Positions 26,091 to 29,410 of a DNA stretch of 64,000 nucleotides are shown one piece after another. Origin of the DNA: Bacillota bacterium (lineage in GTDB: Bacteria; Bacillota; Clostridia; Peptostreptococcales; Acidaminobacteraceae); contig JAIUOA010000002.1 in NCBI GenBank assembly GCA_020161295.1, positions 1 through 64,000 of the forward strand, given 5' to 3'. The notes under the pieces were generated by a model, which had not been told where the DNA came from, did not search any database, and worked only from the letters and a program-made list of their open reading frames with translations. Numbering within the stretch: the stretch's first letter is position 1; every line of letters starts with the position of its first letter. The translations under genes and the position numbers were made by a program.

Positions 26091-26722
26091 TCACTGAAGA
26101 CATGCCAGTCTATCCGGGCACTGAGCCGCCTAAGCTTCAGGAGGCCAATACCTACGCCAGGGACGGCTTTAAAGAAACGAAGCTGGAGATGTTTTCCCAC
26201 ACAGGGACGCATATGGACGCACCAGCTCATTTATTTTATGGTCATGCCACACTGGATGCATTACCCATCGAGCAATTTATCGGTTCGGCGGTGGTCATCG
26301 ATTGTACAGGATTTAAAGAAGGGGAACGAATCTCATTAAAACATGTGTTGAAAACGCAACCCCTTGCGTCTAGTGCGGATTTCTTACTGTTTTATACGGG
26401 ATGGGATCGTTTTTGGGGAACAGATGCCTATTTTGATGATTATCCAACCGTAACAGAGGATGTCATCGATTTCGTGGTCAAAAGCGGTAAAAAAGGAATC
26501 GGATTTGATGTCATCGGACTGGATGCCATCAGCGATGGTGAACTTCCTTTGCACAAGCGGCTGTTATCTCAGGGGAAATTTTTAATCATTGAGAATTTAA
26601 GAAATTTAGGTAGAATCGGGGATGGATTATTTACGCTGTATGCGTTACCATTAAATTATATTAATGCAGATGGTGCACCGACTAGGGTGGTGGCTGTTTG
26701 CCATGAAGAGGAGTCATTATGA
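26063..26722 (+). CDS. Cyclase/kynurenine formamidase-like metal hydrolase
   Basis: The 219-residue protein belongs to the cyclase family (Pfam Cyclase, KynB-like). It opens IIDLTHLITEDMPVYPGT and carries the signature HTGTHMDAPAHL, which binds the metal. Members hydrolyse N-formylkynurenine or cyclic amides, but no tryptophan catabolic gene is close. GGAGG inside the upstream hydrolase gene precedes ATG 26063. It shares an operon with a hydrolase and an acetyltransferase. Confidence 0.88.
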   Translation: MRIIDLTHLITEDMPVYPGTEPPKLQEANTYARDGFKETKLEMFSHTGTHMDAPAHLFYGHATLDALPIEQFIGSAVVIDCTGFKEGERISLKHVLKTQPLASSADFLLFYTGWDRFWGTDAYFDDYPTVTEDVIDFVVKSGKKGIGFDVIGLDAISDGELPLHKRLLSQGKFLIIENLRNLGRIGDGLFTLYALPLNYINADGAPTRVVAVCHEEESL

Positions 26723-27225
26723 CATCATTAGTGATTAGACCAGCAGTAAAAGACGATTATCCAGCAATACTAGAACTCAACGAATCGTTGGTTCATTTTC
26801 TTTCACCCATGGATGAAGCTAAGCTTTCTCATCTACATGAAGAATCAGAACTGTTATATGTCGCTGAGTTATCTGGAAATGTAGAAGCTTTTGCCCTTTG
26901 TATTAGAGAAGGAAAAGATTATGACAGTGTGAACTATACTTGGTTTTCAGAACACTATCCACAGTTTCTGTACGTGGATCGTATCGTCGTTTCTAATAAT
27001 GCACAGGGAAAAGGTTTAGGCGCGGCATTGTATAAGCAGGTCTTTAATCATGCGCAAGAGACAGGTGTTAGTCATGTCACCGCAGAAATCGACATACTGC
27101 CACCTAATCCAGGATCCTTAGTTTTTCATGAGAAATTTGGTTTTAAAGAAGTGGGGCAGCAGGCGGTTGCTGGTGGTAAAAAGCGCGTTTCATTACAAGC
27201 GGTAGAAGTTAAAGCCGAGGATTAA
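26719..27225 (+). CDS. GNAT family N-acetyltransferase
   Basis: The 168-residue GNAT protein has LYVDRIVVSNNAQGKGLGAALYKQVF, with the acetyl-CoA loop QGKGLG, and ends GSLVFHEKFGFKEVGQ. This resembles acetyltransferases of the YhbS/amino-acid type. Its ATG overlaps the cyclase stop codon (ATGA), so it is translationally coupled. The stop codon lies in the terminator hairpin. Confidence 0.85.
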   Translation: MTSLVIRPAVKDDYPAILELNESLVHFLSPMDEAKLSHLHEESELLYVAELSGNVEAFALCIREGKDYDSVNYTWFSEHYPQFLYVDRIVVSNNAQGKGLGAALYKQVFNHAQETGVSHVTAEIDILPPNPGSLVFHEKFGFKEVGQQAVAGGKKRVSLQAVEVKAED

Positions 27226-27237
27226 TCCTCGGCTTTT
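27211..27237. terminator. Terminator overlapping the GNAT stop codon
   Basis: AAAGCCGAGGATT and AATCCTCGGCTTTT form a compact perfect stem, with A and T flanks. Confidence 0.75.
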
Positions 27238-27272
27238 AGGGTTTTCATATAAGAGATTCTTGGGAGTGTTTG

Positions 27273-28544
27273 ATGATTAAGCTAACGACCGATCGCCTTG
27301 TGATTAGAGACCATATTGGACCTGATATTTTGGATTTACATAGCTTGCTTTCAGATCCTGTGGCCATGCGCTTTATCCCGGATTTGTTTTCGACATCACT
27401 GTCAGATTCAGAAGAAAATTTACGCGTCGCCATGGAAGAGGCCGCGTCAGGAAACCGGTCAAAATATTTTTTCGCCATCACTAAAGAGGATAAATATATC
27501 GGAGAAATAGGCTTCACGATTTTAGAGAATACGCATGCGTTTTCGGTTGCCGAGCTTGGTTACTTCATCAAGCCTGAGTTTTGGGGAAAAGGCTATGTCA
27601 CCGAAGCGGCTAGAGCGGTCCTCGACTTCGCATTTGATGTGGTCGGTGTCACGAAAATCATCACTGGATGCAATGCGAAAAACATCGCTTCCGAAAGGAT
27701 CATGAATAAACTTGGGATGATAAAAACCGATCACCTTCAGGCGCATAGTCTTTTGGAGGGAGAGTGGTGCGACCGCGTTTGCTATGAACTTATCGGCAAA
27801 ATTGATCGTCATGTCAGAAATCGGCAGAAATATCAAAATGAAACAGGAAAATCGTCGGCGCATGTTTATCAATTTTTTACAAATAAAGATTCAATTTTTT
27901 TGAAGATTGATCATACAGGTAGTGAACTCAATAGGGAAGTGGCCATCATCAATTGGTTGACAGGAAAACTACCCATTCCAGAAGTCATTGAGGCGTTCTC
28001 AATGGGCGACCGGACCTATTTGCTCATGAAAGCGGTACAAGGCCAAATGGTCAAATCAGTCATTAAGGCGCATTCTCCAGAATCAATCGTCAAAGCACTT
28101 GCAAATGGTGTGAATAGACTTCATAGCATCGATGTAACGGACTGCCCTTTTGAAAATACGCTCGACATGAAGCTGACTTCAGCGCGAAAGCTTCTAGAAA
28201 ATAATCAAATTTCAACAGAGGATTGGGAAGAAAACACGCTCTTTGAATCGCCCGAAGCACTTCTAGAGTATTTAGAAAATAATCGACCTGAAGAAGAACT
28301 TGTTTTTACACATGGCGATTATACAAAAGAGAATATTTTTATAGAGGGACCCGAGGTGACAGGGTTTATCGATTTAGGGCGTGCAGGAATCGCAGACCAG
28401 TGGCAGGATTTAGCGCTTTGTATAAGGACTTTAAGAAAACTGTACAAAAGTGAAGCGTTGATTGCACTATTTCTCAAAATAATCGAAATTCCAATGGATG
28501 AAAGAAAACTAGATTACTACATCATGCTTGATGAGTTGTTTTAG
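27273..28544 (+). CDS. GNAT acetyltransferase fused to APH(3')-like phosphotransferase
   Basis: The protein is 423 residues. Residues 1-178 form a RimJ/RimL-type GNAT domain (TDRLVIRDH, GYFIKPEFWGKGYVTEAA, N-ASERIMNKLGM). Residues from about 180 match aminoglycoside phosphotransferases of the APH(3') group: GKSSAHVYQF nucleotide loop, LKIDHTGSELNREVAIINWL, KLPIPEVIEAF, catalytic HGDYTKEN (D349, N354), metal-binding IDLGRAGIADQWQDLA (D367) and the ending YYIMLDELF. The layout recalls bifunctional aminoglycoside-modifying enzymes, but both partners differ from AAC(6')-APH(2''). Activity is not shown by sequence. ATG 27273 lies six bases after GGGAG. Confidence 0.8.
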   Translation: MIKLTTDRLVIRDHIGPDILDLHSLLSDPVAMRFIPDLFSTSLSDSEENLRVAMEEAASGNRSKYFFAITKEDKYIGEIGFTILENTHAFSVAELGYFIKPEFWGKGYVTEAARAVLDFAFDVVGVTKIITGCNAKNIASERIMNKLGMIKTDHLQAHSLLEGEWCDRVCYELIGKIDRHVRNRQKYQNETGKSSAHVYQFFTNKDSIFLKIDHTGSELNREVAIINWLTGKLPIPEVIEAFSMGDRTYLLMKAVQGQMVKSVIKAHSPESIVKALANGVNRLHSIDVTDCPFENTLDMKLTSARKLLENNQISTEDWEENTLFESPEALLEYLENNRPEEELVFTHGDYTKENIFIEGPEVTGFIDLGRAGIADQWQDLALCIRTLRKLYKSEALIALFLKIIEIPMDERKLDYYIMLDELF

Positions 28545-28558
28545 GAGGTTTTACCCTG

Positions 28559-29410
28559 ATGTTTTTGAATCGTTTTTACTTTCCCAGTGGCGATCGGGAG
28601 TTTGACTTTTTTCTCTCCATCAAACGAAAATGTTATGATAATTTTTATCCATTTCAGGTAATGCCACGTAAGGGACTTACTCAATTAGACTTTGAGCCCA
28701 TCACTATCCTATATGGCGGAAATGGCTCTGGAAAGACCACTGTGTTAAACGTCATCGCCGAAAAATTGAAGATAGACCGGGAATCCATGTATAACCGTTC
28801 CAGTTTTTTTGAGGACTATTTGGCGCTTTGCCGATTTGAAATGGAAGAAGAAGCCCCTTCGCCTAGTAAGATAATTACTAGCGATGATGTCTTTAATTTT
28901 ATGCTGAATCTTCGTGCCCTAAATGAGGGCATCGATATGAAACGCGAGGATTTGTTTGAAGAGTATTTGGATGCGAAATATAGCAACTTTAAAATGCGCT
29001 CTTTAGAAGACTATCATCAGCTAAAAAAAGTTAACCAGTCACGTAGTAAAACGCAATCGAAATTCGTAAGAGCAAATCTGATGGAAAACGTCAAAGGCAA
29101 TTCCAATGGCGAAAGTGCGTATCGTTATTTCACCGATAGCATTAAAGGGCGCGCACTCTATCTGCTTGATGAGCCTGAAAATAGCCTTTCGGCTGAAAGG
29201 CAGCTTGAACTCGTTTCCTTTATCGAGGAGTACGCCAGATATGAAGGCTGCCAGTTTGTCATCTCTACCCATTCGCCATTCCTGTTAGCCATTCGAGGGG
29301 CTAAGATTTACGATCTGGATGAGTCCCCCGTGGATGTTAAACGGTGGACAGAGTTAAAAACAGTAAAGCTTTATCAACAGTTCTTTAAGAAACATGAAAA
29401 TGAGTTTTAA
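28559..29410 (+). CDS. AAA family ATPase (ABC/RecF-like)
   Basis: The 283-residue ATPase has Walker A LYGGNGSGKTTVLN (about residues 53-66), Walker B YLLDEPENSLS and the switch histidine in FVISTHSPFLLA. A short insert (about 80-190) replaces a coiled coil. These are single-domain ABC-type ATPases found in many accessory loci. It lies 14 bp after the GNAT-APH gene and is probably cotranscribed. The role is unknown. It overlaps the convergent Crp/Fnr gene by 4 bp. Confidence 0.85.
   Translation: MFLNRFYFPSGDREFDFFLSIKRKCYDNFYPFQVMPRKGLTQLDFEPITILYGGNGSGKTTVLNVIAEKLKIDRESMYNRSSFFEDYLALCRFEMEEEAPSPSKIITSDDVFNFMLNLRALNEGIDMKREDLFEEYLDAKYSNFKMRSLEDYHQLKKVNQSRSKTQSKFVRANLMENVKGNSNGESAYRYFTDSIKGRALYLLDEPENSLSAERQLELVSFIEEYARYEGCQFVISTHSPFLLAIRGAKIYDLDESPVDVKRWTELKTVKLYQQFFKKHENEF

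Follow-up and report, generated by a model that had tools for sequence, protein, structure and literature searches.

The window analysed here, a stretch of bacterial DNA of 64,000 nucleotides, carries at positions 27273-28544 of the forward strand a single open frame that is translated without a stop into 423 residues. The initial annotation had placed a GNAT acetyltransferase and an APH(3')-type kinase together in this frame, and that reading is borne out: the frame is open throughout, both halves match profiles, and the four motifs quoted for it (GKSSAHVYQF, HGDYTKEN, IDLGRAGIADQ and YYIMLDELF) are all found in the translation. A frame break near 27,800, which had been named as evidence that would speak against the fusion, is absent, the sequence there containing neither a stop nor a frameshift. 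The gene is read from the ATG at 27273, with an in-frame TTG three bases 5' of it (27270) as a possible other start; a putative ribosome-binding site, GGGAG, was read from the sequence at 27262-27266 (+), 6 nt 5' of the ATG.

A separate GNAT gene, assigned by profile match and belonging to another subfamily, lies 5' of the fusion gene on the same strand (26719-27225, +). Between the two genes, fold energy reveals a strong terminator-like hairpin with an 11 bp stem (27211-27236, +), overlapping the upstream GNAT gene at its 3' end; the region 27200-27260 folds at -20.3 kcal/mol (z -3.7), and a consensus terminator scan did not pick up this hairpin. The hairpin may indicate that the fusion gene is transcribed from a start of its own. 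Directly 3' of the fusion gene, positions 28559-29410 of the window encode an AAA ATPase with weak matches to AriA/PtuA-like defence profiles. A search for this ATPase across 41 host-family genomes found relatives with 57-72% identity in 8 other genomes of the family; at the threshold used, the 3 other genomes of the same genus lack it. Profiling of 8 products from the neighbourhood returned no mobile genes, in agreement with the earlier statement that no mobile element is close. Elsewhere in the same genome, two more APH-family genes have a GNAT gene just upstream (G000:C29:123750-125604 and G000:C31:108012-109381).

The two halves and their junction

The GNAT domain comprises residues 1-174 (27273-27794, +), as delimited by Pfam, an AlphaFold model in which the last strand spans residues 168-174, and conserved columns. 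Residues 8-149 match Acetyltransf_3 (PF13302; E 1.9e-29, 103.5 bits against a gathering cut-off of 25.4), and the half modelled alone by AlphaFold reaches a pTM of 0.81. It retains 33 of the 35 columns conserved in its clade, about as many as its free-standing relatives, and alignments locate the segment FWGKGYVTEA at residues 103-112 (27579-27608, +), which, from knowledge of the GNAT fold, we take to be the acetyl-CoA-binding region. The nearest matches by sequence and fold are 3fbu, PA3944, RimL, RimJ and SpeG. Judged by its Acetyltransf_3 profile and fold matches, the N-terminal half is a RimL/RimJ/SpeG-like GNAT, sharing fold and profile with proteins such as 3fbu and PA3944. Unlike these relatives, which are free-standing, it is part of a longer chain, and its scores against the RimJ, RimL and SpeG equivalogs (29-34 bits) fall well short of the respective cut-offs (184-218).

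The kinase domain occupies residues 185-423 (27825-28541, +), as defined by NF033068 and a fold match to APH(3')-IIIa. Failure of this half to match APH profiles had also been anticipated as a possible refutation, and does not apply: residues 194-388 match PF01636 (APH; E 1.9e-26, 93.7 bits against a cut-off of 23.2), and the NCBIfam APH(3') equivalog NF033068 spans residues 176-423 with 258.9 bits, for a cut-off of 205. APH(3')-IIIa is the best match both by sequence among solved structures of the PDB (E 4e-53) and by fold (E 1.4e-24); the likeness extends across the whole kinase half at about 39% identity, and the catalytic residues checked are the same. By alignment, K211 (27903-27905, +) corresponds to the ATP-binding lysine K44 of APH(3')-IIIa and E222 to E60. 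The HGDYTKEN motif (28311-28334, +) contains D349 and N354, equivalent to the catalytic D190 and to N195, whereas DLGR (28371-28382, +) provides D367, equivalent to the magnesium-binding D208. The C-terminal LDELF (28527-28541, +) carries D420, E421 and F423, the counterparts of the substrate-side residues D261, E262 and F264. All 8 catalytic or substrate residues checked are intact. The APH(3') enzymes characterised so far have, to our knowledge, a single domain; the window's kinase differs from that family in being preceded by a GNAT domain and in lacking a start codon of its own.

Comparison with 79 other APH(3') sequences gave 43 columns with at least 90% conservation, and the kinase half retains 39 of these. 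The four departures are E353, T386, I404 and M418, of which T386 replaces an otherwise invariant serine, and the half sits on a long tree branch (1.18, against a median end branch of 0.34). The substrate specificity of the kinase may therefore have shifted, as the long branch and the four conserved-column changes suggest. A further step along this line, close to the enzyme for another amino-sugar compound that the initial annotation had considered, would be that the kinase has moved to another amino-sugar or a sugar alcohol, the fusion then serving metabolism or self-protection and not aminoglycoside resistance. The profiled neighbours, which include no recognised biosynthetic cluster or resistance cassette, add to the sequence changes in its favour, but the kinase passes the APH(3') equivalog cut-off and has conserved C-terminal residues on the substrate side, which makes such a change of substrate distinctly improbable. 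Since the NF033068 cut-off is passed and D420, E421 and F423 are kept, aminoglycosides are the first-guess substrate.

The junction was assigned to residues 175-184 (27795-27824, +) from the models and from the ends of stand-alone GNAT relatives, which stop approximately 3-16 residues from it, except for one with a longer open frame. A linker had been proposed near residues 170-195, and structure prediction gives no sign of one: in the model of the GNAT half alone, the last strand (168-174) is followed immediately by a helix, so that it enters the first helix of the APH domain directly. The full-length model is confident for the kinase half, but the first 50 residues of its GNAT half fall below pLDDT 50, for which reason the packing of the two domains is not readable from it. 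From codon 161 to codon 210 there is no in-frame ATG, GTG or TTG. The kinase thus has no start of its own, and an intact kinase would hardly be made without the GNAT half; an arrangement of two overlapping genes, or a separate translation of the kinase, is accordingly unlikely.

Origin of the fusion and its counterparts in other clostridia

Within the host bacterial family, the fusion is present in one of 41 genomes, namely that of the window. Its GNAT half falls in a clade of 15 sequences from the same family (support 98), and the other 14 members stand alone. The APH half clusters (98/87) with free APH(3') genes of a Clostridium and of a Treponema MAG, and in the tree it is placed apart from L007 and L013, which are the two APH(3') genes in its own family. 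In base composition, the GNAT half has 45.3% GC and the APH half 39.0%. The suggestion in the initial annotation that the gene might be a chromosomal ancestor fails on these trees, in which both halves are nested among stand-alone genes. Because the GNAT half lies among stand-alone GNATs of its own family and the APH half among stand-alone APH(3') genes of other families, the fusion is derived and lineage-specific, and its simplest history would be that the APH(3') gene was acquired and became joined to a GNAT gene already resident. In searches of mobile and viral sequences, none of the plasmid matches listed (at least 5000) covers 80% of the query, and copies of APH(3')-IIIa rank at the top; no phage record covering 80% of the full fusion query was found; and viral contigs yielded three APH(3')-IIIa-like genes and no such fusion.

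Absence of the fusion from relatives had been raised as a further ground for rejecting it. This absence holds within the family, but analogous fusions occur in Lachnospiraceae, which are related bacteria of the gut. These were recovered by scanning 84,980 species genomes with the APH-half alignment, supplemented by samples searched with the APH(3') profile: 391 genomes from the class and 397 from Lachnospiraceae (a second class sample seems to consist of nearly the same genomes). Fusion A (L092, L093 and three more species) joins an Acetyltransf_1-type GNAT to APH(3') in a Lachnospiraceae protein of 453-474 aa as read; one genus of 35 genomes has it full-length in 5, and the four copies besides L093 are 77-85% identical to L093. 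A relative of fusion A in two pieces (L190, G1257:C56:14257-15024; 91-92% identity) may be a disrupted copy or may result from faulty assembly. Fusion B (L156 and L183) is a protein of about 433 aa found in 2 of the 13 genomes of another Lachnospiraceae genus, with a GNAT of a third type whose Pfam match is weak (22.6-24.2 bits against a cut-off of 20.7). In fusion C (L162:1174-2280, G575), APH(3') stands behind an N-terminal domain that resembles a shortened inorganic pyrophosphatase, the corresponding Pfam profile reaching 18.7 bits, below its cut-off of 23.5.

Fusions A and B, exemplified by L093 and L156, have the same architecture as the window's fusion and the same join at the APH N-terminus, but are built from other GNAT subfamilies and other APH(3') branches. 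In the APH(3') tree, the window's fusion and fusions A, B and C lie on different branches, those of A and B being supported; as the N-terminal partners also differ, the four fusions arose independently. Pairwise dN/dS is 0.07-0.16 for both halves of fusions A and B, values that apply to these sister fusions and not to the window's gene, which comes from a single genome, and both halves of A and B are thus maintained. Fusion is rare: APH(3') exceeds the cut-off in 13 of the 391 class genomes, where one copy, the window's own, is fused, and in 32 of the 397 Lachnospiraceae genomes, which contain two GNAT fusions and one of type C.

The restriction of the window's fusion to one contig of one genome, with 40 other family genomes lacking it, would also fit a mis-assembly or a neutral accident, that is, a useless fusion with one decaying half. 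Against such an origin, the joint is in frame and lies exactly at the domain boundary, conserved columns are kept in both halves, and the analogous fusions in other taxa have been kept across several species with low dN/dS. An artefact or accident is consequently regarded as highly improbable.

Unfused GNAT genes are also found beside APH(3') genes. Of 84 distinct APH(3') loci, 18-19 have a GNAT gene no more than 1.5 kb away, nearly always on the same strand. GNAT density is 1.06 per 10 kb near APH(3') and 0.66 per 10 kb farther out in the same loci, compared with approximately 0.13 per 10 kb across the window's genome (39 hits in 3.08 Mb), a factor that is rough, given the different methods of detection and the bias in the sampling of the loci. 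At three loci (L047, L158 and L168) a GNAT gene lies directly 5' of a free APH(3') gene; that of L168 is of the same kind as the GNAT of fusion B, so this locus illustrates the unfused pair. NUDIX, GNAT and methyltransferase genes recur near clostridial APH(3') (L158, L108 and L031) in array-like sets of small-molecule-modifying genes, in which the NUDIX and methyltransferase genes were judged by eye from ORF translations and most GNATs by profile.

Proposed activities and relation to known enzymes

The explanation that we somewhat favour is a lineage-specific fusion enzyme that carries a working APH(3') and a working GNAT on one polypeptide. At its origin, a GNAT gene like those that stand alone in the host family would have been extended at its 3' end, in frame, by an APH(3') gene like those that are free in other clostridia. 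From its sequence, the most probable activity of the C-terminal half is ATP-dependent phosphorylation of kanamycin/neomycin-type aminoglycosides at the 3'-hydroxyl. The N-terminal half would move an acetyl group from acetyl-CoA onto an amine, most likely that of the same acceptor as in its stand-alone relatives. If the two halves are active as we infer, with aminoglycosides as substrate of the kinase, and if the fusion is selected for the reason supposed here, it would couple the production of two small-molecule-modifying enzymes whose genes are often adjacent in clostridia.

The obvious point of comparison is AAC(6')-Ie/APH(2'')-Ia of staphylococci and enterococci, which likewise unites an N-terminal acetyltransferase and a C-terminal aminoglycoside kinase in one chain. 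The initial annotation held that the partners here are different ones, and it was right to do so: profile and fold both identify the kinase as APH(3'), its fold match to APH(2'')-Ia being much weaker (E 1e-10, 17% identity) than that to APH(3')-IIIa (1.4e-24), and the acetyltransferase is RimL/RimJ/SpeG-like, with all AAC profiles below cut-off. The best AAC profile listed for the GNAT half, of the AAC(6')-I A10 type, reaches 26 bits against a cut-off of 400. On the evidence of both halves, a protein of the AAC(6')-Ie/APH(2'')-Ia type is ruled out.

A double-modifying resistance enzyme could nevertheless be envisaged: the GNAT half would then be an N-acetyltransferase of aminoglycosides, and a single drug would be modified by both domains, as happens with AAC(6')-Ie/APH(2'')-Ia. 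In favour of this, the domain order matches that of the known bifunctional enzyme (PMC3675766), APH(3') has been fused to GNATs from three distinct subfamilies, and GNAT genes cluster near APH(3') as described above. On the other side, the differing GNAT subfamilies imply no common AAC activity, the AAC profile scores are far below cut-off, the closest folds are protein and polyamine acetyltransferases, and the genomes in which the GNAT half has a stand-alone relative show no match to the APH half at the same threshold. Modification of one drug by both halves is therefore considered unlikely. Similarly low confidence attaches to a broader proposal, according to which clostridia repeatedly join to APH(3') the GNAT that precedes it, and the GNAT halves would be unrecognised acetyltransferases of aminoglycosides or other drugs acting together with the kinase. 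Because the fused GNATs come from different subfamilies, a shared two-step reaction is disfavoured, and co-production of two modifying enzymes, as in the explanation preferred here, is favoured.

A 2013 review listed four bifunctional aminoglycoside-modifying enzymes, none of which contains APH(3') (PMC3675766), and the benefit of having both activities on one chain has been described as unclear (PMC5722643). No description of a GNAT-APH(3') fusion enzyme was found in the open-access papers searched, an absence that is not proof of novelty. At least three independent GNAT-APH(3') fusions, with apparent unfused counterparts, are present in clostridia; two of them are shared by more than one species, and purifying selection acts on both of their halves. 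The GNAT partners of APH(3') escape the family profiles for resistance enzymes, and the natural pairs of fused and unfused genes make the question of what two activities on one chain bring a testable one.
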